Below, piece by piece: positions 14,061 to 45,905 of a DNA stretch of 64,000 nt (position 1 is its first letter; every line of letters starts with the position of its first letter). Source of the stretch: Primulina eburnea (Eukaryota; Streptophyta; Magnoliopsida; Lamiales; Gesneriaceae); contig NC_133103.1 in assembly GCF_022965805.1 (NCBI RefSeq), positions 29,750,329 to 29,814,328 on the forward strand, given 5' to 3'. Under the pieces are notes generated by a model, which did no database searches, had not been told where the DNA came from, and saw nothing but the letters and a program-made list of their open reading frames with translations. The position numbers were made by a program, and so were the translations under genes.

Positions 14061-14063
14061 AAC

Positions 14064-20905: not shown

Positions 20906-21010
20906 CATAATATACCAACATTCATAAATTCGAAAAGAAGAACTTGATTTTATTGAGTTCCAATGGAGTACATAAGAAAGTTCAGAAAGTAAAATACATC
21001 GACGACAGAA

Positions 21011-22705: not shown

Positions 22706-23348
22706 GGTCCTCATTTTCAAGATGCACAGTCTCAGCTAGAAAATCAGCTAAGGCTTGTTCTTTGATAGATGTTCTTGGCTCATACTGGATGTCATACTCC
22801 CCTAGCTCAAGGGTCCACTTGATCAAGTGGCCAGACATATCCGAATGAGTTATAATTCTGCCCAATGGGCTGTTCGTGACCACCACAATCGGATGAGATA
22901 AGAAGTAAGGCCTCAAGCGTCTGGCTGTCATTACCAAAGCCAAAGCCAATTTTTCCAACCCCGAGTATCGGATCTCTGCCCCTTTGAGCGCATGCGAAAC
23001 ATAGTACACCGGCTGCTGAACTGATCCATCTAGCTTAACAAGGACTGAACTCACAGCCCCTTCAGTGGCAGATAAATATACCCATAAAGGCCCACCCGTT
23101 GACGGTTTGGCCAGGACGGGAAGCTCGGCCAGGTACTCCTTCAATTCTGTGAAAGCCTTCTCACAATCCGGCCCCCATTCAATTTTTTTGCTTTTTGCAA
23201 GGTCCGGAAGAAAGGTAAGCTCCTGTGGGCGGACCTCGAGATAAAACGTGCCAGCGCAGCAATCCTCCCTGTCAACTGCTGAACATCTTTGGGCCCCGAG
23301 GGGAGACCATACCCTGGATGGCTTGAACTTTCTCGGGGTTAGCCTCAA
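22706..23348 (-). pseudogene. pol: Tat-type first RNase H (connection-like)
   Basis: 'KAFTELKEYLAELPVLAKPS', 'LWVYLSATEGAVSSVLVK', 'VYYVSHALKGAEIRYSGLEK' and 'DMSGHLIKWTLELGEYDIQY' follow the usual order after RT. The catalytic Asp of this first RNase H is not in its usual TDAS context (here LSATEG), consistent with the degenerate first RNase H of Tat elements. It runs directly into the second RNase H. Confidence 0.8.
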
Positions 23349-23919
23349 TCCCCCTCTCTGTCACCATATAGCCCAGAAACTTCCCACTCTTCACCCCAAA
23401 TATACACTTTTGAGGGTTCAGCTTCAGCCCATAGGTCCTGCGGGTGGAAAATGTCTCCACTAGGTCAGGTATGAGCAGGGTCGAATCCTTAGACTTTACC
23501 ATGATTTCATCCACATACACTTCCACATTTCCTCCCCTACCTGCTTAGAAAAGACTTTATCCATCAACCGCTGATACGTGGCTCCGGAATTTTCGAGTCC
23601 GAAGGGCATGACCACATAACAGAAAGTTCCTTCAGAGGTGATGAAACTTACTTTATCTTGATCCTCCACTGCCAAGTGGATTTGATGGTACCCCTAATAA
23701 GCAGTCCAGCATGCACAAATACTGATGTCCGGCTGTGGAGTCCACCAACTGATCTATCCGCGGCAAGGGATAACAATCTTTAGGACATGCTTTGTTGAGA
23801 TCTCTGAAGTCTACACACATCCTCCATTTTCCTGAACTTTTCGGAACAAGAACGACATTCGAGAGCCAAGTAGGAAATTGTACCTCTCGAATGTGCTCAG
23901 CACTGAGCAAATCTCCCAC
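23272..23919 (-). pseudogene. pol: Tat-type reverse transcriptase, frame-shifted
   Basis: 23653-23919 carries 'IREVQFPTWLSNVVLVPK', 'GKWRMCVDFRDLNKACPKD' and 'YPLPRIDQLVDSTAGH'. 23272-23526 carries the active-site strand as 'YVDEIMVKSKD', where YVDD is normal, so one catalytic Asp is Glu. It continues with 'KCIFGVKSGKFLGYMVTERGIE'. The segment between (23527-23652) is readable in another frame ('GSRINVVSFI'-type text), so at least one indel separates the halves. Confidence 0.85.
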
Positions 23920-23967
23920 CTCCTTTTTTATAACTATATCTTTCTCGGGACCGAAGTGTCTTTTCTT

Positions 23968-24894
23968 CTATTTCACGGGACGAGAATTCGGTAAGATGTT
24001 TAAACGATGTTCTGCTACATCTGGACTCGTCCCTGTGAGCTCTTGGGCTGACCAAGCGAACCTGTTGAGATTAGCTTGTAAACAAGTAATAAGTTTTTCC
24101 CTTACCTCTAGGTCAAGGTCAGGGGATATTCTTAGAGTTTTCTTGTCAGGCCCCAATGTCACGATCTCCGACTTCTCATCCATCACCTCACGAACCTCCC
24201 TCCTTACCACGGGCAACCCGCTTCGCCCCCTTCTAATCATATTAACCTCCACACGTGCCCTCTTCCCCTCTTCTTTCACTATTCCTTCATAACATCTTCG
24301 TGCAACTTTCTGGTCTCAACACAAGACTCCCACCTCCTTTCCCACAGGAAATTTCAACTTCTGATGATACGTGGAAGCTACGGCTCTGAAATCCTTTACT
24401 ACCACGATAAATGTTATCATCTTTGTTACCCGCCGAGAGTCACGTCCCAAAGATAGGGGAAGATTAATCTGGCCCAACGGCGGAATGGCATGGCCTGTGA
24501 ACCCATATAGAGGAGTGGAGACTGGATCAAACTCGAATCCTTCGACTTTCATCTGGTCCAACGTGCTCTTAAACAATATATTTACAGAGCTCCCATTATC
24601 AATGAAGATCCTTGCCACATCGTAATTGGCAATGGTGGTCGTCACCACCAAGGCATCGTTATGAGGGGCCACGATGCCTCGGAGGTCCTCCGGCCCGAAA
24701 CTGATGATGGGATCCGGGGGCAGGTCCGTACCTCTAGAAATCTCAAAATTTTCCAACCTCCTCCCATGCGCTTTCCGCGCTCTCCCGGAATCTCCATCAG
24801 TAGCACCCCCCGAGATCATATGAATCATCCCTCTCGTGGGGTGGTTATCCTCATTCATTCTCCTCCTCGGTTCAGCGAGCTCCCGATGGGACAT
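23968..24894 (-). pseudogene. pol: Tat-type aspartic protease and linker to RT
   Basis: 24316-24894 contains 'VARIFIDNGSSVNILFKST', where the usual DxGSS active site is present as IDNGSSVNIL, and 'PLYGFTGHAIPPLGQINLP'. 23968-24279 is the protease-RT linker ('VTLGPDKKTLRISPDLD', 'RFAWSAQELTGTSPDVAEH'). A stop or shift near 24280-24315 separates the two. Confidence 0.8.
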
Positions 24895-25768
24895 CCTGAC
24901 CTCGACCCTCTCTCCTCGGCGCTTCGATCCTTGGATGTATCCATGGAGGGCCTCGACCCCGCCTAGAAGACGGGAGAGATCTCAGCTCACTCCCGGACGA
25001 GGACCCTTCATGTCTACCCCGTGGCGGAGGTCGAGCACTGCTCTCAACCCTCTGTGACTTCTCCCCCCTCTCCCCCGACTCCCTCACCTCCATCACCTTA
25101 TCCCGACTCCTATTCAGAGGAACATGTGATGAGAATTGTCCTCTACCTTTGGTTCTGTCCTCATCTCTTTCCCCTGCACCCCTCTTCTTTCCACCTCTCT
25201 AGGCTCCCTCCACCCTACTTCCTCCGGGCCGGTTTTCCATCCTCCTGTATCGTTGAGCATCCTCCAAGTTTACATATTTCTCCGCCCGAGCTAACAAGTC
25301 ATCATAGCTCGACAGAGGCTTCTTGACCAGCGATTTGAAGAATTCTCCCCCCCTCAGCCCTTGGGTAAAGGCGCTTATCATGATGTCAGTGGTAGCCGCT
25401 GGTATTTCTAGCGCTGCAGTGTTGAAGCGCTGGACAAACTCCCGCAACGTTTCAGCCTCTTGCTGTTTCATCACAAATAGACTCAAATAGTTCTTTTGAT
25501 GCCTCTTGCTGCTGGCAAATCGGTTGCAAGAAGGCTGCAGAGAAATCCTCGAACGACTGTATGGAGTTGGGCTGCAGGGTATTAAACCATTGCTGGGCGG
25601 ACCTCACCAACGTGCCCAGAAACACCCTGCACCTGACTCCGTCCGAATATTGGTGCAACAGAGCCGCATTCTCAAATCTTCCCAAGTGTTCTCAGGTTGC
25701 AAGTCCTTAATACCGCATTTCAATTGTCAAATTCAAGGGAACTTCAAGATTAGTGAAAGCTTCCTCGC
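24872..25768 (-). pseudogene. gag: Tat-type gag, truncated at its N-terminus
   Basis: 25452-25685 ('RFENAALLHQYSDGVRCRVF', 'RSAQQWFNTLQPNSIQSFED') and 25199-25486 ('MKQQEAETLREFVQRFNTAA', 'GLRGGEFFKSLVKKPLSSYD') form a typical Tat gag capsid region. 24872-25096 is the charged C-terminal part. At least one base is missing just before 'GRFENAAL' and the capsid is split again near 25470. The N-terminal part ends at about 25768 against a copia LTR fragment, so the element has no 5' LTR or primer site here. Confidence 0.8.
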
Positions 25769-25961
25769 TTGGGTAACTGTAACATTTAAGACTACTTCCG
25801 TTAGCATAGAAGACGTCAAGTTATCCTAAGTCCAGACTCGGTTCTGCTTCTCGTTATCTAAGTTCTGAAAAATTAGTCCTGCTTTTATATTTTATACTAA
25901 TTTTAACTAACAGCCTGCCGGTTTTTATTCGTATTGCCACAATAAATTTAGGCCTAACAAT
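25769..25961 (-). mobile_element. 3' LTR fragment of the large SIRE-type copia element
   Basis: 25769-25945 matches 60141-60297, the outer part of the same element's 5' LTR. On the minus strand an LTR start TGTTAGGCC follows the purine-rich tract ACAAAGGGGTAAAT (complement of 25961-25975). Only about 190 bp remain. The remainder, seen in 59325-60140, is replaced by Tat gag sequence, so a deletion or rearrangement joined the two elements at the GTAAC near 25769. Confidence 0.65.
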
Positions 25962-26020
25962 TTACCCCTTTGTGGTGATGCCAAAACCTGGATGTAAGCA
26001 AAGATAGATAACGGCAATAT

Positions 26021-29000
26021 AAAACAACAAAATATATTAAGATACTAAAACAAAAAATATTTTAGTTATCATTGCCAATGTCTCTGAAAATAATTTCAAC
26101 AACCTGAGTATCAGCATTAAGATTTCTTCTGGCAGAGAATTCTGCCAAGTCTCCAGTTCTTCTATCTTCTGGTTGTGCTTCTTCCCCCTTTTTGGCATCA
26201 ACGGCCATGACTTGAGCAATTAAGTAGTCCATATGCCCAGAGAGATTCATTATTCCGTTGTCGAGCATCTCCAAATATGGTGTATGATGAGATACTTGTT
26301 CACTTAGAGTATTAGAGATTGGGATTGAGACTCAATCTTGGCATCCATAGACTCCATTGAAATAGAAACTGAACGGATAACATCATAATGGTCGGTGAGT
26401 CGTTGGAGAATGTCAGTTTTTCCGAGCATTATAGCCTGTCCAAAAAACATTTGTCTCAGCATGCATTTTGTTAACAGATTCCATCGTGCGAAATATCTCT
26501 TTAGAGATACGGTCTCAGAAAAACTGTGCACCACTCACTTCTGCAGCATGTTCACGCGAGATTTGCTTTACCATCTTCGATAGATTGTTGAGATTTCTTT
26601 GCAGAGCTTCTATCTCAGATTCCATGTTAAATATTTCTAGTTCCGGAGAAGGAGTTTTGGTGAGCATACGCTGCCTAATTTCGGCAACATGGGCAATATG
26701 AGCAGCAGAGTCAGAAACAGATACAACCAATGCAGTAGAGACTGGAAACTGTTGAGGAGCAGTAGGAAGAATTGTGTCCAGCAGAGCAGTAGAAGAATCA
26801 GGTTCAACAGAGATTTCTTCTAGAGCAGTAGGAGAGATTTGTGTTGAAATAGTTTCTTCAGCAGCAGATGGAGCAGGAGAAGTGACTTCAAGATTATTAA
26901 TTTATTCATAAGCAACATTCTCGTCGTGGTGAACATTTTCAGTAGTTTCCAGTGGTTGCTCCGAGGAGGTGAGTTCAGATGACCTATGCAGGAGAGCTGA
27001 CATTTCTGCTTGATGTTCAGCAAAAAATTTCTCAAGATTTGGTAAAGGATGATCATCTGAAGCTTCCATGGGTTGGGTTTCGGGTGATGGTTCTGAGGAG
27101 AACACATCCTGATTTGATTGAGGTGGAGCAGCAGTAGGAACAATGGACTGAATGACCTCATCCACCGAGGCCAGCTCTTGAACAGAGATCAATGACGATG
27201 ATCGAGTAGTCAGTTCTGGTAATGCAGTAGTACTTGAGACTTTTGCGTTTATGGGAGCTGTGGTCCTTTCCTCAACTAGCTGTATCTGTAAAAGTTCAGG
27301 AACCAGGCCTAATCTGTATGAAAGAGGCTTAGCAAAAGCCTGCTCTTGAGTGTGAATCTGTTCAATCAACAAATTCAATTTATCATAGATAAGCTTGATA
27401 ATATCCTGATCATGAGAAGCAGTAGGACTCATTGGATCAAAATTAGACTTTAGTGTTGACAACACAGAGTCCATTTCCTTCTGCCTTAATTGATCAAGGA
27501 TGTAGTTCCTTCGATTCATTGCCTCAATAACATTTTTGGCTTTTGCAGTAGCAAAAACATTCTTCTCATGCTTCATCATGCGTCCCAATGTGTTTTTAGT
27601 ACGTAAATAAGTGATAGTATGAAAAACTCTCATCTTCAGCCATTCATCAAAAAATAACAAATTTTCCTTGGCAGAGTTTTCAATCTCCTGAAGTGGAGTT
27701 CAATGCCAGTTTGTACTGTGTTTTGGTGCATTGGCGTTGGGGTTTTTCAAATAACTTCCCTTTTCCTTTTCCAGTAGGAGAAGGCAGCACAGATCGAGTA
27801 GTGGAGGATCCGGATAGTGAATCTCGAAAAACAACTCCAGTAACAGGTCTGAGAGTAGACACTGAAGTTGATGTTGATGAAACAAGAGCATCTACTGGTG
27901 CGATGATAGAGATGATATCAGTTGGTTGTGAGACAGCAATAGTGACTGCTGGATCTGAAACAGACTTGGGTTTGGGTGAGTTGACAACTGGAAATACTTG
28001 TCTCAACGAGACAGTATCCAAATCAGCAATGACTGTTGTTTTCTGGATGCGGATGGTAGTTCGGGGCTTCTTTTTGTTCGGAGTTGCTACTGGAATGGAA
28101 GCAGCAGTAGGTGCAGCTGATTCTTCAGATACAGTGTTCTCTGAATCAGTCAAGACAATTACTCTTTTTCTTTTGATTTTATTTTGAACAGCTAGACCTT
28201 CGGCTTGGGCATCCCCAATCTCCTTTTTCATTGAAACAAATTCAGCCACAGTTGGCTTAAGTCGAAGAGCAAGCACGTTATCAGCGTTTGCCATAGTAAC
28301 AAAAGAAGAATCATGTTCAGTGGTGAACGGAAAACCAGCATCCTTCAACATCTGGCTAATTTGAACAGCAAACCCAGTCTTTTTTCTTGAAATCATTTCT
28401 CTCATGATTTTGAATAGAAACAAACTCCAATCTACCTTGATCTCAGAAGTGATTGCTACCATCACCTGAACTTTTTCTTTGGTTAATCGATCAAAAGTAC
28501 CAGCTTTCACAAGTAGTGCCTTTGCCACAATATCAGCGAGTATTTGGTACTCCATGAGAGATACTAAAACAACAAAATATATTAAGATACTAAAACAAAA
28601 AATATTTTAGTTATCATTGCCAATGTCTCTGAAAATAATTTCAACAACCTGAGTATCAGCATTAAGATTTCTTCTGGCAGAGAATTCTGCCAAGTCTCCA
28701 GTTCTTCTATCTTCTGGTTGTGCTTCTTCCCCCTTTTTGGCATCAACGGCCATGACTTGAGCAATTAAGTAGTCCATATGCCCAGAGAGATTCATTATTC
28801 CGTTGTCGAGCATCTCCAAATATGGTGTATGATGAGATACTTGTTCACTTAGAGTATTAAGAGATTGAGATTGAGACTCAATCTTGGCATCCATAGACTC
28901 CATTGAAATAGAAACTGAACGGATAACATCATAATGGTCGGTGAGTCGTTGGAGAATGTCAGTTTTTCCGAGCATCATAGCACATTGACTTCTGGAAACA

Positions 29001-31135
29001 GCCTGTCCAAAAACATTTGTCTCAGCATGCATTTTGTTAACAGATTCCATCGTGCGAAATATCTCTTTAGAGATACGGTCTCAGAAAAACTGTGCACCAC
29101 TCACTTCTGCAGCATGTTCACGCGAGATTTGCTTTACCATCTTCGATAGATTGTTGAGATTTCTTTGCAGAGCTTCTATCTTAGATTCCATGTTAAATAT
29201 TTCTAGTTCCGGAGAAGGAGTTTTGGTGAGCATACGCTGCCTGATTTCGGCAACATGGGCAATATGAGCAGCAGAGTCAGAAACAGATACAACCAATGCA
29301 GTAGAGACTGGAAACTGTTGAGGAGCAGTAGGAAGAATTGTGTCCAGCAGAGCAGTAGAAGAATCAGGTTCAACAGAGATTTCTTCTAGAGCAGTAGGAG
29401 AGATTTGTGTTGAAATAGTTTCTTCAGCAGCAGATGGAGCAGGAGAAGTGACTTCAAGATTATTAATTTATTCATAAGCAACATTCTCGTCGTGGTGAAC
29501 ATTTTCAGTAGTTTCCAGTGGTTGCTCCGAGGAGGTGAGTTCAGATGACCTATGCAGGAGAGCTGACATTTCTGCTTGATGTTCAGCAGAAAATTTCTCA
29601 AGATTTGGTAAAGGATGATCATCTGAAGCTTCCATGGGTTGGGTTTCGGGTGATGGTTCTGAGGAGAACACATCCTGATTTGATTGAGGTGGAGCAGCAG
29701 TAGGAACAATGGACTGAATGACCTCATCCACCGAGGCCAGCTCTTGAACAGAGATCAATGACGATGATCGAGTAGGCAGTTCTGGTAATGCAGTAGTACT
29801 TGAGACTTTTGCGTTTATGGGAGCTGTGGTCCTTTCCTCAACTAGCTGTATCTGTAAAAGTTCAGGAACCAGGCCTAATCTGTATGAAAGAGGCTTAGCA
29901 AAAGCCTGCTCTTGAGTGTGAATCTGTTCAATCAAAAAATTCAATTTATCATAGATAAGCTTGATAATATCCTGATCATGAGAAGCAGTAGGACTCATTG
30001 GATCAAAATTAGACTTTAGTGTTGACAACACAGAGTCCATTTCCTTCTGCCTTAATTGATCAAGGATGTAGTTCCTTCGATTCATTGCCTCAATAACATT
30101 TTTGGCTTTTGCAGTAGCAAAAACATTCTTCTCATGCTTCATCATGCGTCCCAATGTGTTTTTAGTACGTAAATAAGTGATAGTATGAAAAACTCTCATC
30201 TTCAGCCATTCATCAAAAAATAACAAATTTTCCTTGGCAGAGTTTTCAATCTCCTGAAGTGGAGTTCAATGCCAGTTTGTACTATGTTTTGGTGCATTGG
30301 CGTTGGGGTTTTTCAAATAACTTCCCTTTTCCTTTTCCAGTAGGAGAAGGCAGCACAGATCGAGTAGTGGAGGATCCGGATAGTGAATCTCGAAAAACAA
30401 CTCCAGTAACAGGTCTGAGAGTAGACACTGAAGTTGATGTTGATGAAACAAGAGCATCTACTGGTGCGATGACAGAGGTGATATCAGTTGGTTGTGAGAC
30501 AGCAATAGTGACTGCTGGATCTGAAACAGACTTGGGTTTGGGTGAGTTGACAGCTGGAAATACTTGTCTCAACGAGACAGTATCCAAATCAGCAATGACT
30601 GTTGTTTTCTGGATGCGGATGGTAGTTCGGGGCTTCTTTTTGTTCGGAGTTGCTACTGGAATGGAAGCAGCAGTAGGTGCAGCTGATTCTTCAGATACAG
30701 TGTTCTCTGAATCAGTCAAGACAATTACTCTTTTTCTTTTGATTTTATTTTGAACAGCTAGACCTTCGGCTTGGGCATCCCCAATCTTCTTTTTCATTGA
30801 AACAAATTAAGCCACAGTTGGCTTAAGTCGAAGAACAAGCACGTTATCAGCGTTTGCCATAGTAACAAAAGAAGAATCATGTTCAGTGGTGAACGGAAAA
30901 CCAGCATCCTTCAACATCTGGCTAATTTGAACAGCAAACCCAGTCTTTTTTCTTGAAATCATTTCTCTCTTGATTTTGAATAGAAACAAACTCCAATCTA
31001 CCTTGATCTCAGAAGTGATTGCTACCATCACCTGAACTTTTTCTTTGGTTAATCGATCAAAAGTACCAGCTTCTTGAAGGAAGAAGCTTCTTGAAGGAAG
31101 AAGCTTCTTTGGTTAATCGATCAAAAGTACCAAAG
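26021..31135. repeat. Tandem duplication, two units of about 2.55 kb
   Basis: 26021-28563 and about 28566-31066/31135 are direct repeats with offset 2545-2566 bp. The offset changes because of a 22-bp and a 1-bp difference near 26302-26450. Most lines differ by 0-2 bases per 60, so the duplication is young relative to the element. Both units start TAAAACAACAAAATATATT. Confidence 0.9.
26037..28565 (-). pseudogene. Envelope-like ORF of the SIRE-type copia, tandem copy 2
   Basis: Reading on the minus strand, 27680-28555 has 'ILADIVAKALLVKAGTFDRL', 'FAVQISQMLKDAGFPFTTEH' and a basic hinge 'KIKRKRVIVLTDSENTVS', then a long Ser/Thr/Pro-rich segment. After a frame break, 26902-27660 has 'FFDEWLKMRVFHTITYLRT' and 'HEKNVFATAKAKNVIEAMNR'. 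A coiled-coil tail lies in 26062-26730 ('KIESQSQSL', 'MDYLIAQVMAVDAKKGE'). This is the ORF found downstream of RNase H in SIRE-type elements and called envelope-like, with no proven function. The break near 27660-27680 is also present in copy 1, so it predates the duplication. This copy lacks about 22 bp near 26430 that copy 1 has. Confidence 0.75.
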
Positions 31136-33239: not shown

Positions 33240-33377
33240 AAATCAAGTTAAATCAATTAATCCCAATATATTTCGAAAGTAAGAAAACTTATTCTCAAGC
33301 AAAGGTTTAGTAAAGATATCTGCTGCTTGTAAATCAGTAAAGACATATTCCAGACGAATGTCCTTCTTCTGCACATG
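33240..33377 (-). pseudogene. pol: SIRE-type copia RNase H, C-terminal piece
   Basis: The minus strand reads 'RDHVQKKDIRLEYVFTDLQA' then 'ADIFTKPLLENKFSYFRNIL' and 'GLIDLT', the normal end of copia RNase H. The frame is cut at 33378 by the Athila-like element; the preceding part is at 44629 onward. An apparent longer frame to 33464 uses LTR sequence and is not real. Confidence 0.9.
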
Positions 33378-33382
33378 ATCTC
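33378..33382. repeat. Target-site duplication ATCTC (left)
   Basis: ATCTC immediately precedes the LTR start TGTTGCGAC. The identical five bases are at 44624-44628 after the other LTR. Removing the element and one copy restores the copia RNase H order. Confidence 0.95.
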
Positions 33383-34961
33383 TGTTGCGACTTTGATTGT
33401 TGCACTCCCAAGAGCAGGTTGTCCACAAGTAATATAATTCGGTGAGTCCGAATATCGTATCCACAGGGAAGCTAAGGTAATTACAAGTCCACTACAATGT
33501 CTTTTTGTTTTGTTTTTTTTTTTGTTTCTTTTTAATTTTAATTGTTTGAATATTTAATGGGTAAATTTTACTTGTTCAAATTTTAATTTAAGTAGTTGAG
33601 ATTAAAGGATCCACTCTTGGTATTTTAATAAAGTTAACATTAACGAACAATATTGAAATCCACTAATAAAATGGCTCCAATATATTAAATAATCATATTT
33701 ATATTATGTTATAAATTATTATCTCATAAATATATAATATATACCAAAACTTATAAATGTGGTCAAGTATTTATTGTGCTATATATATATTTGTAAACAC
33801 TAAATCAAGGTTCCGATTTAAATGGTTGGTAAAACCAAACTAACATTAAATGGTACCAAGAAAATATTAATATGATATATTTATATATAGTAAATCAAGG
33901 AATCCAAGTTAAATGGTTGGTAAAACCAAACTAACATTTAAATGGTTCCAAGAATTTAATATTATAATATATTTATATATAATAAATCAAGGCATCCACT
34001 TTAAATGGTTGGTAATACCAAACTAACATTTAAATGGTTCCAAGAATTTAGTGTAACATATAGCAACAGTAAATCAAAACTCCCACTTATAAGTAGGGTA
34101 TAAAAATGCTTAAAGAAATAAATATAACATAAACAATAAATAATGATTAAATAATATAAAACATAGATTCTTACCTTTTAATAACCTTATTATCATGCCA
34201 AGAGTTTCACCTTATCATCTCAACTTTAGGAAGTTAGCTATTCATTATTCAAAGTGTAAAACTTTGAATATGAAATTAACATGCTAATTATATTTAAATG
34301 AAAAAATAAAAGAAAAATATAGAGAGAAATATTATGAACTCAAAGGTTTGTTCATAGAATGAGGGATATCTCAATACATTACAATGCACCCCTATTTATA
34401 GCCAAATTTGGGGAGACAACCACAAATAAAATATTATTTTTTACACATAAGTCTTCATTGGTGTTCCAAGAAATTAATATTATATTACACATCACTTTTG
34501 AAAATCTTCTTCTCCGAATTTGCTTCTTCACATAAAAAGAAACATGTGGATAATTGAGTTGTCTAGTTGTGGTATTTTTTTCAGAATATTTGACCAAGTA
34601 ATTTGAGAGATATGGTCAAAATACTAGAACATGGTAAAACTGTCAGTCCTTTGGTAACTTTCTTTGTTGCTTTATTTGATCTCAATTGTGAGAGGATTTT
34701 TATCTCATGCTTGTCAACAATATTGTAGATATTATAATCGACTTTCTACAGGTCCAAGAATCATCTTAATCTCATTTGCAACGTCAATGTTATTCTTGTT
34801 TTATCGAACCTGTAAAAATAGTAAAAACTTATAATTACACAACAACTTATATTTTATACAATTTATTATAAAACATATAATATTTAAACATTTAATAAAA
34901 CAAAAACTATATATTTATATTATAAAACATTTAATTAATATACAATTTTTTATCTTTATCA
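33383..34961 (-). repeat. 3' LTR of the Athila-like element
   Basis: 1579 bp, TGTTGCGAC...TTTATCA on the + strand. It matches 43045-44623 with scattered substitutions and compensating 1-bp indels. A TATA box on the minus strand is at 34393-34400. Internal short direct repeats around AAATGGTTGGTAAAACCAAA occur near 33820, 33910 and 34000. Confidence 0.95.
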
Positions 34962-36185
34962 CACTCTCCAACCAGCTTATTGCTAGTCCCTAGCAATTTA
35001 AGCGTTAATAGCAATACAAAACATATTGATTAATTTAATTAGAAATGTAATCAAAACTATCTAAGTGTTAAAATTAAATTTGAAAACTGTCAAAGTTATA
35101 TCAAGATCATCATAATTATAATTTGTGAAATAATTTGAGATGATCAATTCAAAGCTTATTTTAGGTAGTTAAATGTATACGGCCTTTAGAAATTTCTAGT
35201 AAGAGTCTCAACTCCATATCCTCACAGGTTAATAAATGTTTCAAATTTATGGAAACGATTTCTTTCATGGAGTTGGAATACAGATAAATGCTCAAGGAAA
35301 TGGTTTACAGAATGCAGACAGACAAACGAGCCAAACTAATCAAAAGATAGAAAATCGATTGATTCAAAATCTAGTTGTTCTTATTATATTTTTTTTTCCT
35401 GATAATATTTATTATTATTATTTTTTTTTCATAACATCATGGAATCAGACTAAGTTTATGCTTCTTGACCACATATTTATTTAATTTGTACAATAATTTT
35501 CTCTCTCTTTTTTTTTATGAGAGATATATGGGTCGTAGCATATAACTTAAAAATTACTTAGATCTTCAATATCTTTTTTTTTTCTCCTCTTTTTTTTTCA
35601 GGAAATATCATTTTTTTTTTCAAAATAAGAACTCAAGATCTAAACAATAGATAGTCTCTCTCATTATCAATAAAGGCTCGAAAGTTGTTTTCTCAGTCCT
35701 CTCCACTCACTCACAAAATATGTGTGAGTTTAAAATTTTAGGCACTCTTATAAGGTATATCTTGGGCCATATACTTTAATACCTAATTTTAGCACAATGG
35801 TTAATCACTCAAAAAGATTTCATAAATCATATTTTTATATTGATCAGAATATTAAAAATGACCTTTTTTCAAATAAAAATTTAAACATTCTTAAATAGAT
35901 TAATACATGTTCTAATTTAAATTTTTCAAATATGTAAAGTATGACATTTTTGCAAAAATTACTAAGGTACAAACAATAAACATGGTTTTATTTTAAAATA
36001 ATATTTAATTATTTTTTTTAAATTTGTTTTTTTTTTAAATTTGTTCTCCCCCCAATCAGAATATGACATTGTCCCTAATGTCAAAATAGCTATTAATAAA
36101 GAGTACATAATGAAAGAGATATCACCTGGAATTTTATTGAAGATAACAAACTGAAACAAACGCAAACCAATCCACGACTTTTGAA
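34962..36185 (-). other. 3' untranslated region of the Athila-like element
   Basis: AT-rich with long T runs on the + strand and no supported gene. On the minus strand near 36075-36045 it carries the text TTAGGGACAATGTCATATT followed by a G-run (TTGGGGGGAGAAC). As I recall, this is a motif common to Athila elements just after their last gene. This supports LOG lying in the normal 'last gene' slot. Confidence 0.6.
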
Positions 36186-36825
36186 TCAATGATCCAACTT
36201 CCTTTTCTTACTGCTTGATTGCGACCAATTGATATTTTCTATCATCGGATCAGGCTTATGAACAAAAGCTTCCAAATCATCAATTAATTGGTCGGCAGTC
36301 GAAGCACAGATGAGCATCCGTCGTGAATTTTCTGAAATGAAATTCTGTTCCACAGCTTTATCAAGAAATGTCAACAAACTGTCATAATTAATTATTGATA
36401 TTCAACAAGCCCACGGGTTTATTATGGATATTAAGTTGTGCCCAAGAAACAGTGTGAAAAATTTCTTCTAATGTACCAAAACCACCTGGTAGTGCGATAA
36501 AAGCATCAGAATTTTCAATCATTTGAGTGATTCTTTCATACATAGAAGAAACTTTTAATTCTTCCCCAATCGTAACACCTGTAATATTTCCTTCAGCTAA
36601 AGCTGTAGGAATAATACCCAAAACCTGACTACCTCCAAGATGAGCAGATGTTGAAACAGATCTCATTAACCCAATATTACCTCCCCCATATACCAAGTGA
36701 ATTTTTCTCTCAGCCAATATCTTTCCAAGATTATTCGCTGCTTCTACAAACACTTCATTTTTTCCAGGACTCGACCCACAAAATACACAAATATTTTTCA
36801 ATGTTTGTGCAGAGGATCCAGCCAT
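36186..36825 (-). pseudogene. LOG: LOG: cytokinin riboside 5'-monophosphate phosphoribohydrolase, captured intronless copy, frameshifted
   Basis: Starts 'MAGSSAQTLKNICVFCGSSP', with 'LVYGGGNIGLMRSVS' (nucleotide-binding loop), 'SSMYERITQMIENSDAFIAL' and the LOG signature 'LPGGFGTLEEIFHTVSWAQL', then 'NIHNKPVGLLNINN' and a stop. The normal continuation ('LLTFLDKAVEQNFIS' and on) follows in another frame to 36186. The joint near 36385-36395 looks like a 4-bp TAAT duplication. LOG enzymes release active cytokinin bases from their nucleotides in the cytosol. Plant LOG genes normally have several introns; this copy has none, which suggests capture from spliced mRNA. The PGGxGTxxE motif is intact. 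The tail ends 'SSSKKRKLDH', a basic end. Truncation removes only the last quarter, so activity is uncertain. Confidence 0.9.
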
Positions 36826-36994
36826 GTTTTTAATTTCTTTTTTTTTAATTTTCCTCTGGTTTTACGTCCAGAAAAGGCTTCAACGCCTTCTATGAGTCGA
36901 GGATATGCTTCCCATCCAATTTTCTTATAAATTGGCAAACATGATTTTTTTTAGTAGGATTCCCAAGACTATGACGCTCATCTTGGAATTGTTT
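36826..36994 (-). other. Gap between the NABP-like and LOG frames, with a possible third coding patch
   Basis: In a different minus-strand frame, 36830-36950 reads 'CLPIYKKIGWEAYPRLIEGV' followed by 'EAFSGRKTRGKLKKRN' and a stop two codons before the LOG ATG. It has no start of its own here and I do not recognise it. It may be the shifted tail of the upstream protein or a remnant of another gene. Confidence 0.3.
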
Positions 36995-37435
36995 TCATAA
37001 ACAGAGAAGTTCAATATGCACATGTCCACTATAATGCGTCTCAAGAGTCAATAAGATGTTATCTAAAGACTCCTTACTCAGTCCATTCTTAATGAAACCA
37101 ATTTTATCTTCTCTGTTATTGGAAACACATCCCAAAGATCTGCATCGTTTGTCACAAGTCCATCTCGCACACTTATGACAAACCCCTAAACTTTTGGCCC
37201 TTCGTTTTTTCGCATAAGTGCTTTTTCCTAATCCAGGCAAATATCGAATGAGCAAAGATTGTGGAACTTCTCCTCCTAATCGGACCTTAGCTTCTATTAC
37301 AAGACGAATATCTTCTGGAATTCCTTTTTGCATTAGCAATCTCAATCGTTCACACTTTACTTCATAAATTTTTCTTAGAACATTTTCAGAAACAGAGGGA
37401 AAATATTTACAAATTTTTGAGAGAATTTCATCCAT
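36995..37435 (-). CDS. Carlavirus NABP-like cysteine-rich basic protein in the retrotransposon
   Basis: From the likely ATG at 37435 ('MDEILSKICKYFPSVSENVL') it is 146 aa. The core is 'LPGLGKSTYAKKRRAKSLG' followed directly by 'VCHKCARWTCDKRCRSLGC' and, further on, 'DKIGFIKNGLSKE'. A basic KKRR-type block just before a CxxC...C...C zinc finger and a following FI(x)nG segment is the layout of carlavirus nucleic-acid-binding proteins. In some carlaviruses these affect RNA silencing and symptoms (family knowledge). The frame also extends upstream to 37600 with a hydrophobic 55-aa leader, which I think is less likely to be translated. It lies 170 bp after the integrase stop. Similarity was judged by motif only, with no search. 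No premature stop is seen. Confidence 0.65.
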   Translation of the reverse strand: MDEILSKICKYFPSVSENVLRKIYEVKCERLRLLMQKGIPEDIRLVIEAKVRLGGEVPQSLLIRYLPGLGKSTYAKKRRAKSLGVCHKCARWTCDKRCRSLGCVSNNREDKIGFIKNGLSKESLDNILLTLETHYSGHVHIELLCL

Positions 37436-37606
37436 TTTGAAAAGAAAAGAAATGATTTTTTTTATTTTTGTATCAGCAATTGTGGGAAACTGATTTAACC
37501 GACTATGAGAGTCACGGAGTACCGTTATCCGCCATTTAACCGGGAAAATAAAAAGATTAAGGAAACCTGAAATAAAAACAAACAAAATTAAATGCAACAT
37601 AAAAAT

Positions 37607-38947
37607 TTAAGGATCAGAAAGGGAAATAAACTCTTCTTGAAAGATTTCATTTTCCAAAAATGGTTTAAGCCTTTGTCCATTCACTTTAAAAACATCGCCA
37701 TTTTTAGGATTTTCAATATCCACAACTCCATAAGGATACACATACTTTACAACATATGGGCCTGTCCATCTTGATCGTAATTTTCCTGGGAATATGTGAA
37801 GTCGAGAATTATAAAGCAAAACTTTTTTACCAATCTCAAAAGATTTTCTAAGAATAGTTTTATCATGAAATGATTTGATTTTTGCTTTATAAATCCTTGA
37901 ATTCTCATACGCGTCATTTCTGAGTTCATCAAGTTCATTAAGTTGCAATTTACGCAATTTGTTGACATCATCCATGCTTGAATTTAAAGTTTTGATCGCC
38001 CAATAAGCTTTATGTTCCAATTCCACATGCAAATGACAATGTTTTCCATAAATCAACCTATAGGGAGACATATTCAATGATGTTTTAAAAGCTGTTCGAT
38101 ATGCCCAAAGTGCATCATTAAGTCGCAGAGACCAATCTTTTCTATTTGAGTTAACAGTTTTTTCCAAAATTTGCTTTATCTCCCTATTAGCTAATTCAAC
38201 TTGTCCATTTGTTTGAGGATGATAAGGAGTAGTTACTTTGTGAGTAATACTATATTTTTTCATTAATGAAGCAAATGGTTTATTAACAAAGTGAGTTCCC
38301 TCATCACTTATCATAGCTCGAGGAATTCCGAATCTACTAAAAATAATTTCTTTCAAAAATTTGATGACGATTTTATGATCATTTGTTCGACATGGAATTG
38401 CCTCTATCCATTTGAAAACATAATCAACTGCAACTAAAATATACAAGTATCCAAACGACGGTGGAAAAGGTCCCATAAAATCAATTCCCCAACAGTCAAA
38501 AATTTCAATTTCAATGATAGGATTCAAAGGCATCATGTTTCTTTTTGAAATCGCACCCAATTTTTGACAATTTTCACAGATCTTGCAGATTTCGTGGGTG
38601 TCTTTAAACAAAGTGGGCCAATAAAATCCACACTGCAAGATTTTTGCAGCCGTTTTCTTTGAAGAAAAATGTCCTCCGCATGCTTCTGAATGACAAAATT
38701 TAATGACACTACTTACCTCATTTTCGGGTATGCAACGTCGAAAAATTTGATCCGGACAATACTTGAACAGATACGAATCATCCCAATAAAAGTTTTTTAC
38801 CTCATTCAAATATTTTCTTTTATCTTGAGAACTCCATTGCGGTGGCATTTTTCCTGTCACAAGAAAATTTACTATGTTAGCAAACCAAGGTGTAGTAGTA
38901 ACTGAAAATAGATGTTCATCAGGAAAATTATCCTTAATTGGTGTCAT
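37607..38947 (-). CDS. pol: Athila-type integrase
   Basis: An open 446-aa frame. The zinc finger is '[14 protein letters not shown]' with '[11 protein letters not shown]' (HHCC). The catalytic core is '[15 protein letters not shown]' (D), '[18 protein letters not shown]' (D) and '[19 protein letters not shown]' (E). The C-terminal domain is '[19 protein letters not shown]'. All catalytic residues are present, so this domain could be active. It ends shortly before the NABP-like frame. A stop separates it from RNase H upstream, so it would not be made as a full polyprotein. Confidence 0.9.
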
Positions 38948-38948
38948 T

Positions 38949-39470
38949 TCACAAGATGATCCTGTTACTAGTCTCGATAAATGATCGGCTACGACATTCT
39001 CGGTTCCTTTTTTTATCTTTGATCACAATGTCAAATTCTTGGAGTAACAAAATCCATCGTATCAGTCGTGGCTTTGCATCCTGTTTCGTCAACAAATATC
39101 TAATAGCAGAATGATCAGTAAACACAATAGTCGTTGATCCAATCAAATAAGAACGAAATTTATCTAATGCAAATATTACAGCAAGTAGTTCTTTTTCAGT
39201 TGTGGAGTAATTTATTTGAGCATTGTTTAAAGTTCTACTTGCATAATATATCACATAAGGCTTACCGTTTCTTCTTTGACCTAGTACTGCACTGACTGCA
39301 TAATCACTCGCGTCGCACATGATTTCAAATGGTAAAGACCAATCAGGAGGTTGCATGATAGGAGCTGATGTTAAATGTCGAATGATTTTATCAAAAGCAT
39401 TTTGACATTCTTGAGTCCACTCAAATGCACTGTCTTTTGTTAAGAGGTTACAAATGGTTTAGAGATTAAA
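38949..39470 (-). pseudogene. pol: Athila-type RNase H
   Basis: 38949-39356: '[19 protein letters not shown]', '[20 protein letters not shown]', '[19 protein letters not shown]' and '[19 protein letters not shown]'. The final Asp-containing part is shifted out of frame ('[14 protein letters not shown]'). 39357-39470 holds the RT-RNase H connection in broken frames. Confidence 0.85.
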
Positions 39471-40779
39471 CTAAAGTACCTTTATAAACCTCCTATAAAA
39501 TCCAGCATGTCCCAAAAATAAGCGAATTTCTTTAATGGTTTTTGGAGGGGGTAAATTGGCAATGACATCAACTTTTGCTTTATCAACTTCAATTCCATGA
39601 GATGACACGACATGTCCCAAAACAGTTCCAGAAGTAATCATGTAATGACATTTTTCCCAATGTAAAATAAGACCTTTTTCGTCGCATCTTTTTAAAACTT
39701 TTTCCAAATTTTCAAGACAATTATCAAATGTATTCCCAAAGACAGTTAAATCATCCATGAAAATTTCCAAACAATTTTCAACCATGTCGCAAAAAATGCT
39801 TAGCATACATCTTTGAAATGTTGCTGGGGTATTGCATAATCCAAATGGCATCCTTCTAAATGCAATATTCCAAAAGGACCTGTGAATGTAGTTTTATCTT
39901 GATCTTCGAGTGCAATGGGAATTTGATAATAACCAGAATATCCATCAAGAAAACAGTAGTATGGATGACCTGCTACTCTTTCTAAAATTTGATCCAAAAT
40001 GGTAATGGAAAATGATCTTTTCTAGTGGCGTCATTTAATTTTCTATAATCAATACACATCCGCCAACTAGATGGGACTCGACTTGTTAACAATTCACCTT
40101 TTTCATTTTTTATCACTGTGATGCCAGATTTTTTTGGAACTACTTGTGTTGGGCTTACCCACTTACTATCAGAAATAGGGTAGATAATCCCAACATCAAG
40201 TAGTTTGAGAACTTCAGTTTTCACAACATCTTTCATGTGTGGATTTAATCTCCTTTGTGGTTGTTGAGATGTTTTAGCATTTTCTTCTAAATGAATTTTG
40301 TGTGTGCAAATTAGTGGATTAATGCCCTTGAGATCTTTTAGTGTCCAACCAATTGCATTTTTATGTCTTTTAAGCATATCAACTAATTTACCTTCTTGAT
40401 CACTTTCTAGTTTGGAAGAAATTACCACCGGATATGTTTCATCTTCTCCAAGAAATGCATACTTCAATTCTTCTGGCAAGGGTTTTAACTCCAATATGGG
40501 TGGTTCGTCTTTGTTCTCATATTTTGCATCAAATTCTTTCTCTGATCCTGGTAACGAGTGATACCTGATAAAATCATCAAGATCAATTTCAATATTTTCT
40601 TTAACCGTTTCAATTGAACAAATATTTAATTGGTCACGAGTACTCCCTTCTTGAATGTTTTCTTCCACAAGAGTTTCAATAAGATTTTCATCTTCACTTT
40701 CATCTCCTTTGTCATGTGGTTGCTTACAAAGATTAAAAACATTGAGCTCCAAGGTCATGTTACCAAATGACAACTTCAT
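39471..40779 (-). pseudogene. pol: Athila-type reverse transcriptase, two frameshifts
   Basis: 39982-40779: linker, then 'ISDSKWVSPTQVVPKKSG' and 'SSWRMCIDYRKLNDATRKDH'. 39800-39997: 'YCFLDGYSGYYQIPIALED' and 'KTTFTGPFGILHLEGCHLD'. 39471-39851: 'MPFGLCNTPATFQRCML', the active site 'CLEIFMDDLTVFGN' and 'EIRLFLGHAGFYRRFIK'. Catalytic residues are present but the domain is split near 39990 and 39850. Confidence 0.9.
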
Positions 40780-41234
40780 TATTCATTCCTGCAATTTAAA
40801 AGAGCATTAGAAGTTGCTAAAAATGGACGACCCAGAATTACAGGAATTGCATTACAAGCTTCGATAGGTTGTGTATCTAAAACTATGAAATCGACAGGAT
40901 ATACAAAGTTATCAACTTGGACCAATACGTCTTCTACCATACCTCTTGGCACCTTAACAGATCTATCGGCAAGTAAAAGTGTTATTGAAGTAGGTTTTAA
41001 CTCGCCTAGATTGAGTTCTTGATAAACTGAATATGGAAGTAAATTAACACTAGCTCCAAGATCAAGCAAGGCTTTTTTAATCTTTCGTTCTCCAATAATA
41101 CATGAAATAGTAGGACAACCAGGGTCTTTGTATTTCAAAGTATTATTATTTTGAATGATTGCACTTACTTGTTCGGCTAAAAATGCTTTCTTTTTCACAT
41201 TCAATTTTCTTTTCACAGTGCACAAGTCTTTCAA
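40779..41234 (-). CDS. pol: Athila-type aspartic protease
   Basis: 'KKALLDLGASVNLLPYSVYQ' carries the DLGAS active site typical of Athila. 'STITLLLADRSVKVPRGMVE'-type text and 'AIPVILGRPFLATSNALLNC' (ILG-x-PFL flap end) follow. It overlaps the gag-linker frame by about 90 bp in another frame, indicating an indel between gag and protease. Confidence 0.8.
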   Translation of the reverse strand: MKDLCTVKRKLNVKKKAFLAEQVSAIIQNNNTLKYKDPGCPTISCIIGERKIKKALLDLGASVNLLPYSVYQELNLGELKPTSITLLLADRSVKVPRGMVEDVLVQVDNFVYPVDFIVLDTQPIEACNAIPVILGRPFLATSNALLNCRNE

Positions 41235-42965
41235 AAACTTTGCATATGATAGTACCTGTTTTATTGCATCTTAAAGGAATATTAACTTTTAATTGTTTAA
41301 AAATATCATATATATCAGAATTCAAATTTGATTTTTTTGTATTTTTCAATGCATGAGGGAATGGTGGTGACACTGTCTGTTGAACCTCCTCTTCGGAAGT
41401 TATGGGTTCCACTTCCTTACCCTTTGAAGTTGATTTATCATCATCTTCACAAGGTTCAAGAATGGATTTTTCAACAACCTTACCACTTCGAAGGGTAATA
41501 ACAGATTTTACCTGATCCATCGGTTGAGTTCCAGAAGTTCCAGTTTGTGAATGATGATCCTTGGGATTAGGCAGAGGTTGTGAAGGAAATTTACCTTTTT
41601 CATGAACATTAGGTGCAGATGCAAATTTAGTAAGAGTATCTTTCAAATCTGTCATGGTTTGTAGCAGTTTGAGTATTGATAGACTCTTGCTTTGCAATGA
41701 AAGAATTCAATATATCTTCCAAATTTCTATTAGGTAGAGGAACATAAGGTGCATAATTTTGAAAATTTTGTTGATTTTGGAAATGTGGTTGTGAAAATTG
41801 TGCAGCATTATCATTCCTCCAACTAAAATTTGGATGATTTCGCCAACCTGGATTGTAATTTTTAGAAAATGGTTCAAAATTTGGCCTTTGAAATTGTTCA
41901 AAACATTGGCTTGTTCATAGAGACATTCTTTAAAAGAGGGCAAAGTGGGACAATCTTTTGTAAAATGATCACTTGTATCACAGATGTGACACACAATTTC
42001 TTGAACAGATTTTAATTGACCATTATTTTTCAATTCAAGTGCCTCAACTTATCTTGCCAAAGAGGTAAATCTAGCTTGAAGATCATGTTCATCTTTGAGA
42101 GTGTACATACCTCCACCAGATGTAGGAGATTGAATCTTGTTTGATAGTTCAATTGTACCTATAGTATCCCAATTTTGAGCATTTTCAGCTAATGAATCGA
42201 GATACTCAATTGCTTCGTTTGGATCTTTATCTTCAAATGTTCCATTACACATAAATTCAACCATTTGCCTATCTTTAGGTGTTAAGCCTTCATAAAATTG
42301 AGAAACAACTCTCCAAATTTCAAAACCATGATGTGGACAAAGATTAATCAATTCTTTGTATCTATCTCAACACTGATAAAAAGTTTCTCCTTGTTTTTGA
42401 GTGAAAGTGATGATTTGCCTTTTGAAAGAATTTGTTCTATGAGATGGAAAAAACTTTTTCAAAAATTGTTGTTGCAATTCATCCCAAGTTCAAATGGATC
42501 CTGATCTAAGATTTTGTAGCAAGTTTTAGCTTTATCTTTTAAAGAAAAAGGAAAAAACTTAAGTCGAATGGTGTTCATGCTACAATTTAGATCATTATAT
42601 GTGTTGCACACTTCTTCAAACTCTCGTAAATGCATGTATGGATTTTCAGAATCTAAGCCATGAAACTTGGGTAAAAGTTGGATAATACCAGGCTTAAAAT
42701 TGAAATGAGATGCATCAAGGGGAAAAACTAGACATGAAGGTGCACTAGTACGTGTAGGATTCATGTGATCTCTAAGTGTTCTTCGTCTATCATGATCATG
42801 TTGAGATTGAATTTCATCTTCATTTTCTTGGATGGGTTCCTCCGCCATGTTTCGTGAAAATAAAGGGTTATTTCGAATGAGTCGACCACTAAGTGTACGT
42901 GACCAAATGCTCATGCAAATGCAAAAGAAAAAGAAAAAAAACACACAAAAGCAATAAAAATTCAA
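41235..42965 (-). pseudogene. gag: Athila-type gag, several frame breaks
   Basis: The likely start is the ATG at 42848 ('MAEEPIQENEDEIQSQHDHD'). The capsid has 'LLPKFHGLDSENPYMHLREF' and 'LKFFPFSLKDKAKTCYKIL'. It continues in 42049-42351 ('VVSQFYEGLTPKDRQMVEF') and 41707-42033, where a zinc knuckle 'CHICDTSDHFTKDC' (CX2CX4HX4C) stands. 41146-41697 is the linker ('QVKSVITLRSGKVVEKSI'-like text). Breaks lie near 42460, 42040 and 41700. Confidence 0.85.
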
Positions 42966-43020
42966 ATAAAGAAAAATAAACTATAAACAATATTAAATAG
43001 ACTTGAAATTAAATTATACT

Positions 43021-43038
43021 TCCCCGGAAACGGCGCCA
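43021..43038 (-). other. Primer-binding site, tRNA-Asp type
   Basis: On the minus strand TGGCGCCGTTTCCGGGGA, matching the 3' end of plant tRNA-Asp at 17 of 18 positions (from memory of that tRNA). It lies six bases inside the 5' LTR. Athila elements commonly use this primer. Confidence 0.85.
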
Positions 43039-43044
43039 AAAACT

Positions 43045-44623
43045 TGTTGCGACTTTGATTGTTGCACTCCCAAGAGCAGGTTGTCCACAAGTAATATAAT
43101 TCAGTGAGTCCGAATATCGTATCCATAGGAAAGCTAAGGATAATTACAAGTCCACTACAATATCTTTTTGTTTTGTTTTTGTTTTTGTTTCTTTTTAATC
43201 TTAATTGTTTGAATATTTAATGGGTAAATTTTAATTGTTCAAATTTTAATTTAAGTAGTTGAGATTAAAGGATCCACTCTTGATATTTTAATAAAGTTAA
43301 CATTAACGAACAATATTGAAATCCACTTAATAAAATGGTTCCAATATATTAAATAATCATATTTATATTATGTTATAATTATTATCTCATAAATATATAA
43401 TATATACCAAAACTTATAAATGTGGTCAAGTATTTATTGTGCTATATATATATTTGTAAACACTAAATCAAGGTTCCGATTTAAATGGTTAGTAAAACCA
43501 AACTAACATTTAAATGGTACCAAGAAAATATTATTATGATATATTTATATATAGTAAATCAAGGAATCCAAGTTAAATGGTTGGTAAAACCAAACTAACA
43601 TTTAAATGGTTCCAAGAATTTAATATTATAATAAATTTATATATAATAAATCAAGGCATCCACTTTAAATGGTTGGTAATACCAAACTAACATTTAAATG
43701 GTTCCAAGAATTTAGTGTAACATGTAGCAACAATAAATCAAACTCTCACTTATAAGTAGGGTATAAAAATGCTTAAAGAAATAAATATAACATAAACAAT
43801 AAATAATGATTAAATAATATAAAACATAGATTCTTACCTTTTAATAACCTTATAATAATGCCAAGAGTTTCACCTTATCATCTCAACTTTAGGAAGTTAG
43901 CTATTCATTATTCAAAGTGTAAAACTTTGAATATGAAATTAACATGCTAATTATATTTAAATGAAGAAATAAAAGAAAAATATAGAGAGAAATATTATGA
44001 ACTCAAAGGTTTGTTCATAGAATGAGAGATATCTCAATACATTACAATGCACCCCTATTTATAGCCAAATTTGGGGAGACAACCACAAATAAATTATTAT
44101 TTTTTACACATAAGTCTTCATTGGTGTTCCAAGAAACTAATATTATATTACACATCACTTTTGAAAATCTTCTTCTCCAAATTTGCTTCTTCACATAAAA
44201 AGAAACATGTGGATAATTGAGTTGTCTAGTTGTGGTATTTTTTTCAGAATATTTGACCAAGTAATTTGAGAGATATGGTCAAAATACTAAAGCATGGTAA
44301 AACTGCCACTCCTTTGGTAACTTTCTTTGTTGCTTTATTTGATCCCAATTGTGAGAGGATTTTTATCTCATGCTTGTCAACAATATTGTAGATATTATAA
44401 TCAACTTTCTATAGGTCCAAGAATCATCTTAATCCCATTTGCAACGCCAAGGTTATTCTTGTTTTATCGAACCTGTAAAATAGTTAAAACTTATAATTAC
44501 ACAACAACTTATATTTTATACAATTTATTATAAAACATATAATATTTAAACATTTAATAAAACAAAAACTATATATTTATATTATAAAACATTTAATTAA
44601 TATACAATTTTTTATCTTTATCA
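43045..44623 (-). repeat. 5' LTR of the Athila-like element
   Basis: 1579 bp, partner of 33383-34961, ending TTTATCA before the ATCTC duplication. The minus-strand TATA box at 44056-44063 (TATAAATA) is the probable promoter for the gag-pol-NABP-LOG transcript. Confidence 0.95.
44056..44063 (-). promoter_or_regulatory. TATA box in the Athila-like 5' LTR
   Basis: The minus strand reads GGCTATAAATAGGGG. The same site is in the 3' LTR at 34393-34400. It has a classic plant core-promoter form. Confidence 0.6.
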
Positions 44624-44628
44624 ATCTC

Positions 44629-45905
44629 TTATAAAATGATGTCTGATGTCGATGTGCTTCGTTTTGGAATGAAGTACTGGATTTTGCGTGATTGCATGGC
44701 ACTGGTATTGTCACAGAAGATAGGTGATTATGAGGCTTGAATTCCTTAGTCTTTGAGTTGTTGTTGTATCCAAAGTATTTAAGAGCAGCAACTTCCAGCA
44801 GCAAGGTATTATGCTTTTGCAGTAGACGTAGCTATGGAAGTCTGCTTTTTACTAAACCAGGAGATCAGCCTATCACCAAGGAATTGACAAAAACCACTTG
44901 TGCTTTTCCTGTCTAGTTTGCAACCTGCATAATCAGCATATGAATATCCAATAAGATTGAAAGATGAATAAATGTGATACCATAAGCCGACATTTTGATT
45001 TCCCTTTAAGTACTTACTTCAAAATACGTTTTGCAGCAATGTAATGAGATTGCTTGGGGTTAGATTGAAATCTTGCACAAATGCAGACAGCAAATTGAAT
45101 ATCAGGTCTACTGGCAGTAATATACAATAGTGAGCCAATGAGACCACGATACTGAGTTACCTCTACTGAAATTCCACTTTCATCTTTATCAAGCTTGGTA
45201 GATGAGCTCATTGTAGTGGAAGCAGCAGAGCATGCTTCCATACCAAACTTTTTTCAGTAGCTCCTTAGTATATTTGGCTTGATTTATGAAAATACCAGTA
45301 TCAAGTTGTTTGATCTGCAATCCTAGGAAGAATGTTAATTTTCCCATCATGGTCATTTCGAATTGATCCTGCATCAACTTTGCACATAGTTTGGGGTTAG
45401 TTGACCCAAAAATAATGTCATCAACATAGATCTGCACTAATAGAATATGTTTATTCTTGACTAGAGTGAACAAGGTCTTGTATATTTTGCCAATTTTAAA
45501 ATCATGATTGATAAGAAATTGTGACAAGTGTCATACCATGCTCTAGGTGCTTGTTTTAAACCATACAGGGCTTTGTGTAATTTGAATACATGATGAGGTA
45601 AAAAATGATCAATAAAACCTGGAGGCTTTCAACGTAGACCTCTCCTTGTAATAGACCATTTAGGAAGGCACTCTTCACATCCATTTGATAAACTTTGAAA
45701 TTCTTAAAAGCAGCAAAAACCAAAATTATTCTGATAGCTTCGAGCCTTGCTACTGGCGCGTAGGTTTCATCATAGTCGATTCCTTCCTCTTGTCTAAAAC
45801 CTTGAGCCACCAGTCTTGCTTTATTTCTAATCACAGTGCCTTCTTCATTTAGTTTTTTTCTGAATACCCACCGGGTTCCAATCACATCTTGGTGAGATGG
45901 TCTAG
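44629..45905 (-). pseudogene. pol: SIRE-type copia reverse transcriptase and RNase H
   Basis: 45556-45885: '[20 protein letters not shown]', '[20 protein letters not shown]' and '[20 protein letters not shown]'. 45189-45527: the active site 'LLVQIYVDDIIFGSTNPKL' and 'KLTFFLGLQIKQLDTGIF'. 45014-45241: 'QYRGLIGSLLYITASRPDIQ'. RNase H follows to 44629 in broken frames and then resumes at 33377. Catalytic YVDD is intact; several frame breaks separate the parts. Confidence 0.9.

Follow-up and report, generated by a model that had tools for sequence, protein, structure and literature searches.

The stretch of DNA discussed here, 64,000 nucleotides from contig NC_133103.1 of Primulina eburnea (positions 29,750,329 to 29,814,328 of the forward strand; hereafter "the window"), contains a long terminal repeat (LTR) retrotransposon of complete structure at window positions 33383–44623. 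It lies on the minus strand and is a Ty3/gypsy element of the Athila-like kind. Between its pol region and its 3′ LTR it carries two further genes, one resembling the nucleic-acid-binding proteins (NABP) of carlaviruses, the other the LOG family, which is known for cytokinin activation. The element belongs to an Athila-like family that has many copies and was active recently; this particular copy is damaged. The accessory pair is real and family-wide. Read along the element, the features are the following (ORF, open reading frame).

44624–44628, no strand: target-site duplication, 5 bp, GAGAT as read along the element, ATCTC on the forward strand, from the LTR flanks
43045–44623, minus: 5′ LTR, 1579 bp, from the LTR alignment
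43021–43038, minus: primer-binding site TGGCGCCGTTTCCGGGGA, after the 5′ LTR, from the sequence
41150–42850, minus: gag region, limits approximate, several frames, CCHC knuckle below the Pfam cut-off, from frames and Pfam
37607–41270, minus: pol (protease, reverse transcriptase, RNase H, integrase), broken, several frames, from Pfam
37567–37580, minus: putative 3′ splice acceptor TTTTATTTCAG, after the pol stop, best of 178 AG sites in L001, from the acceptor matrix
37484–37547, minus: noncoding element of 64 bases, conserved, between the acceptor and the start of NABP, from copy comparison
36995–37435, minus: NABP-like ORF (Carla_C4/Viral_NABP), 146 codons, a basic stretch followed by C-x2-C-x4-C-x3-C, from Pfam
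36388–36825, minus: LOG-like ORF, first 145 codons, with the catalytic Arg and PGGFGTLEE, from Pfam, PDB match and residue comparison
36186–36401, minus: remainder of the LOG-like ORF, in a different frame and with KKRKLDH at its end, from frames and Pfam
34962–34972, minus: purine-rich tract GTTGGAGAGTG, before the 3′ LTR, from the sequence
33383–34961, minus: 3′ LTR, 1579 bp, from the LTR alignment
33378–33382, no strand: target-site duplication, 5 bp, GAGAT as read along the element, ATCTC on the forward strand, from the LTR flanks

The Element and Its Site

A first-pass annotation, made from the sequence alone, had described a gypsy element of Athila look with matched 1579-bp LTRs, a primer-binding site, an ATCTC duplication and gag-pol followed by two sense frames. 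LTR alignment and Pfam confirm this picture, including the domain order and the position of the pair in the envelope slot, i.e., between pol and the 3′ LTR. The LTRs differ by 33 mismatches over 1576 columns (Kimura two-parameter distance 0.021). Frames of protease, reverse transcriptase, RNase H and integrase exceed their Pfam cut-offs in gypsy order, RT_RNaseH being followed by Integrase_H2C2/rve; LTR pair, target-site duplication, primer-binding site and domain order are all those of a Ty3/gypsy element. No gag domain reaches its Pfam cut-off in the window's element, and the scanned frames show neither a chromodomain nor a second RNase H by Pfam. The latter absences and the extra sense ORFs 3′ of pol are traits of the Athila type. 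The putative assignment to this lineage leans on reverse transcriptase and gag signatures typical of it and on the type of primer-binding site. In the 15 of 20 other copies where a pattern search located the site, it reads TGGCGCCGTTGCCGGGGA, presumably of the tRNA-Asp type.

Beyond what had been described, the element turned out to lie on the minus strand and to be damaged. Gag-pol is split into several pieces. The NABP frame halts after 146 codons (181 in 55 of 61 copies, see below) and the LOG frame after 145 (212 in most copies), its remainder being found in another frame. Compared with most other copies, this one also lacks some 145 bp between NABP and LOG; a similarly short gap is seen in two other copies of the 61. 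The empty site can still be read: if the flanks are joined (33243–33382 and 44624–44930, minus strand), they form an uninterrupted frame resembling a Ty1/copia RNase H, recognised by eye, which implies that the element sits inside another one.

The Family in Primulina eburnea

A search of the 812-Mb genome with the NABP protein gave 1286 candidates. The 150 that were scored all match, with 93–97% identity except for the window's own. Out of these, 61 copies were examined, comprising 8 loci (the window's included) and 53 further stretches. LOG adjoins NABP in 60 of them; the sole exception is L029, where similarity is lost just before LOG. A one-off insertion of the cargo, the outcome that the first-pass annotation had named as fatal to its proposal, is thereby ruled out. 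It had also asked whether the two genes always occur together. They do in these 60 copies, but a contig from another plant, L102, seems to have NABP without LOG (see below). Since the copies were located via NABP, the sample tells little about LOG without NABP.

Complete frames are common: the 212-codon LOG is found in 47 of the 61 copies, the 181-codon NABP in 55 and both in 44. LTR ends were fetched for 20 copies, all picked from those with both frames complete. In 16 of them the LTRs align over at least 1490 bp, five without any mismatch and 11 with at most three; of the remaining four, three align over 431–1223 bp and one gave no alignment. Such identical or near-identical LTRs indicate that the family was recently active, although assembly effects could also make LTRs identical.

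The LOG-like Gene and the Cytokinin Question

The assignment to LOG is sound. PF03641 matches the window's frame with an E value of 2.7e-25, the best PDB match is Arabidopsis At2g37210 (E 1.1e-45), and the family profile (TIGR00730/PF03641) matches above its curated cut-off; the fold is that of LOG. What is unusual is the pocket. We set two groups of 120 listed homologues side by side, one for the element's LOG and one for AtLOG3. The catalytic residues mostly stay: Arg99 is kept in 113 and Glu122 in 116 of the element's homologues, and the window's copy keeps both, together with PGGxGTxxE. K100, the lysine of the adenine/prenyl pocket, is replaced by Leu, Ile or Met in 120 of 120, and the pocket glutamate E125 is likewise replaced in all 120; H97 is replaced in 90, and W129 is kept in 119. 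In the AtLOG3 homologues, K100 and E125 are both present in 120 of 120, and LOG8 and PaLOG agree.

That H97, K100, E125 and W129 contact adenine or the prenyl group is a proposal of PMC4979012. The same paper reports that replacing AMP-site residues of CgLOG by alanine nearly abolished activity, S19 excepted.

The first-pass annotation had proposed that the element, by making active cytokinin via LOG, could keep the cells of its host in division and could dampen silencing by means of NABP. The LOG fold and the retained catalytic Arg and Glu would suit such a role, and so would a carlavirus p12 that is described as activating transcription and suppressing silencing (PMC7588395). The loss of K100 and E125 in all the listed homologues and the near inactivity of the CgLOG mutants, however, make this reading unlikely. 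A cytokinin mechanism is possible, yet doubtful and not favoured; the pocket of the LOG-like protein appears to be rebuilt.

On the tree, the tested homologues of the element's LOG form one clade that comprises several plant families; Populus homologues fall within it, together with the window's LOG. Primulina eburnea itself holds a second, more divergent LOG of this retroelement clade (P0150, on a contig of 65783404 bp), which its source calls LOG3-like. Aligning LOG with viral contigs yielded one partial match (L103, 6001–6222; 43% identity to the alignment's first row).

The C-terminal Tail

The homologues also share a peculiar end. Among the 84 of at least 205 residues, LxLxL occurs within the last 14 residues of 74, in most of them behind a basic stretch, and a basic cluster lies within the last 24 residues of 79. 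None of 114 AtLOG3-like rows has LxLxL, nor, by a similar pattern, a basic cluster. We take the basic stretch to be a nuclear signal and LxLxL to be an EAR motif. Across the 67 full rows that were aligned, the tail leucines, three in number, are 95–98% conserved and the residues between them vary. The mean frequency of the commonest residue is 0.70 in the tail, 0.56 in the preceding linker and 0.79 in the core. The LxLxL label changes twice on the tree, which has 36 labelled rows. Of the five rows without it, four group with Primulina, whose LOG frames have KKRKLDH or a close variant of it at their end and do not contain the motif.

A tail of this kind could turn a LOG fold into a nuclear protein that recruits TOPLESS-type corepressors and so alters host transcription or silencing. 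The frequency of LxLxL in the full-length homologues, the conservation of its leucines, the two label changes and its absence from the AtLOG3-like rows argue for this possibility. Yet the motif is missing from the Primulina copies, which amplified recently, and a corepressor role would not require the retained catalytic residues. We consider this role quite unlikely. Among the literature matches listed for EAR motifs in transposon proteins, nothing resembled it.

The NABP-like Gene

The NABP assignment, too, has held. The window's frame matches PF01623 (Carla_C4) with E 4.1e-6 and 27.1 bits, above the cut-off of 20.9, and PF05515 (Viral_NABP) with E 1.1e-4 and 22.7 bits, just under the cut-off of 23. 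In an alignment of 54 family members, Carla_C4 is matched by 54 and Viral_NABP by 53 (E ≤ 0.01). Relatives are widespread: 404 of 429 candidate database proteins match NABP, and Populus, Xanthoceras, Orobanche and Rhamnella are named among the 120 listed.

The fold model is of low confidence (pLDDT 69, pTM 0.31). No significant structure match was found among its first 14 BFVD rows, all with E ≥ 0.09. Twelve of these rows are named, all after flexiviruses, and ten are called silencing suppressor or nucleic-acid-binding; one of the viruses, citrus yellow vein clearing virus, is an alphaflexivirus. No PDB entry matched better than E 0.98, NABP had no match in viral contigs or plasmids, and a 24-mer of the element had none in the other collections searched.

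Three pairs of NABP and LOG matches share their source and the size of the longest contig (8723, 4511 and 1524; common short sizes such as 905 were left uncounted), which suggests that the two genes are linked in other plants as well. L102 differs. It has integrase and NABP, but the last 983 bp after NABP contain neither a LOG-like frame of at least 80 residues nor any similarity to the window's LOG; NABP thus seems to occur without LOG, too. This contig (DAIEQH010000041.1) is filed under a metagenome-assembled genome of Candidatus Nomurabacteria. It looks like a plant retroelement, i.e., a contamination.

Putative Splice Acceptors and a Conserved Noncoding Element

How could two genes behind pol be expressed? 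With a simple matrix, 122–178 AG sites per copy were scored as 3′ splice acceptors. In seven copies besides the window's, the top two sites lie 127–138 bases before the NABP start and 20–31 bases before the LOG start, and these two rank highest in 43 of the 44 copies in which NABP and LOG are both complete. The acceptor cores were found in 53 (LOG) and 58 (NABP) of the 61 copies; the window's copy has lost the LOG site. In L102 the best acceptor-like site is at −137 of NABP. This arrangement just upstream of both frames suggests that NABP and LOG may be expressed from spliced RNAs in the manner of env.

The 64-base element between acceptor and NABP is the best-conserved stretch between pol and NABP, with 87% over 60 columns, as against 87–88% for the most conserved coding stretches of that kind. 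The 27 bases at its core are the same in 53 of the 61 Primulina copies and in L102, where the whole element recurs in near-identical form at 1665–1728. As an RNA family it was rejected: it has no Rfam match and its folding energy is not unusual.

Selection and Possible Functions of the Pair

The ratio of nonsynonymous to synonymous polymorphism (pN/pS) is 0.345 for LOG (35 distinct complete frames; bootstrap 0.22–0.64) and 0.41 for NABP (35 distinct complete frames; 0.22–0.91). The check for purifying selection across copies that the first-pass annotation had asked for gives values below 1 for both genes, and the LOG interval, which excludes 1, indicates purifying constraint on the LOG frames. 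The last 89 codons of integrase, used as a control, gave 0.85 (28 sequences; 0.59–1.24). That the pair is captured DNA in decay, functionless and copied along with a successful element, is very unlikely. In favour of this reading, 17 of the 61 copies, the window's included, lack one or both complete frames, young copies appear intact even without selection and the integrase control is not clearly below 1. Against it stand the LOG interval, the conservation of catalytic residues and tail over a clade of several plant families, and the 404 NABP matches in the database.

On balance, we consider the following reading somewhat more likely than not. The envelope slot of the family is taken by two accessory genes that are retained. 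Each would be made from a spliced subgenomic RNA with an acceptor shortly before the gene begins. The NABP-like protein would bind nucleic acid and may shield the element from RNA silencing by the host or alter host transcription. The LOG-like protein would be a nuclear nucleotide-5′-monophosphate N-glycosidase with a changed substrate, not an ordinary cytokinin-activating enzyme. A bolder version goes further, and we give it little credence: the LOG branch, confined to retroelements, would cleave a new nucleotide in the nucleus, for example an immune or silencing signal of the host, and with its virus-type zinc-finger partner would form a splice-expressed two-gene module that shields the element from the host.

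Several points weigh against the view that the pair are retained accessory genes with such functions. The integrase control is higher than expected for pol, and we have no explanation for it. The pN/pS values come from complete frames only, in copies chosen by their similarity to the NABP of the window. The LTRs were sampled from copies with complete cargo, so that the youth of these copies and the intactness of their cargo do not count as separate observations. The AtLOG3-like set was gathered by similarity, and its uniformity is partly a matter of choice, even if LOG8 and PaLOG agree. The NCBI equivalog for cytokinin LOGs, NF058542, scores the retroelement LOGs at 103–126 bits and an AtLOG3 homologue at 132, all below its cut-off of 300; the model does not separate them. 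Outside Primulina, homologues were called retroelement-borne by clade, copy number and shared contig sizes, not by their flanks. The Primulina tail keeps KKRK in nearly all complete frames, but without LxLxL. Finally, the acceptor matrix was a simple one, and in L102 a second site far upstream from NABP scores 6.5 against 6.8.

Other Features of the Window

Two near-identical blocks, 26902–28606 and 29468–30806, lie 2566 bp apart and look by eye like a direct duplication; they hold a 265-codon frame and others. The stretch 14000–26000 is GC-rich (0.45–0.55, against about 0.3–0.4 across most of the window). It contains gypsy-like pol pieces, recognised by eye, and a 409-codon frame at 17709–18938.

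Relation to Known Systems and Significance

Steinbauerova et al. reportedly found LOGL4-like extra ORFs in two Athila-like elements in 2011. That paper is cited in PMC9289625 for the YgdH/LOG domain in gypsy elements, and PMC9289625 itself lists the domain for consensus sequences of gypsy elements from Citrus and, when its filter is not applied, from Populus trichocarpa as well. LOG in gypsy elements is thus already published. The first-pass annotation had known of no element with both genes: the NABP–LOG pair, or NABP in any retroelement, was not found among the literature matches listed, with subscription papers outside their coverage, and the pocket change, the tail and the acceptors did not appear there either. 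The Citrus and Populus elements share with ours the gypsy backbone and a LOG-family domain, and Populus homologues belong to the clade of the window's LOG; for them, the section of PMC9289625 on the domain reports its presence only, with nothing on an NABP partner, the pocket, a tail or acceptors. Another captured enzyme domain is the AlkB m6A demethylase of Phalaenopsis gypsy elements, a kind also present in Betaflexiviridae; it is a different enzyme, and its activity was measured (PMC9289625). Athila4 and Calypso likewise carry additional sense ORFs after pol and before the 3′ LTR, which are envelope-like (PMC7264820, PMC6317226), whereas the slot of the window's family holds NABP and LOG. 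Athila ORF-1 (PF03078), which only 16% of Athila elements have (PMC6317226), had no match in the scanned frames of the window.

Compared with the carlavirus-type NABP (PF01623, PF05515), for which p12 of chrysanthemum virus B, the p12 described above after PMC7588395, may stand, the retroelement form shares the basic and Cys-rich core by Pfam. It differs in its length of about 182 residues, in helical ends of its own (low-confidence model) and in being part of a chromosomal retroelement. The plant type-I LOG (AtLOG3, 2a33), a cytokinin riboside 5′-monophosphate phosphoribohydrolase, differs from the element's LOG at K100, at E125 and mostly at H97. Native LOG genes contain introns; the element's LOG is one uninterrupted reading frame with a basic tail that often ends in LxLxL.

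Annotation calls for some caution, since certain plant proteins that are listed as LOG are close relatives of the retroelement protein. The LOGL10 entries P0149 and P0160 of Populus trichocarpa are examples: both lack the cytokinin-pocket residues, and P0149 was included in the tree. As to the family itself, LOG domains in gypsy elements would advance from a listed curiosity to a testable case of plant retroelement accessory genes, the predictions being that the pocket of the enzyme is altered, that its tail is nuclear and that two RNAs are made by splicing.

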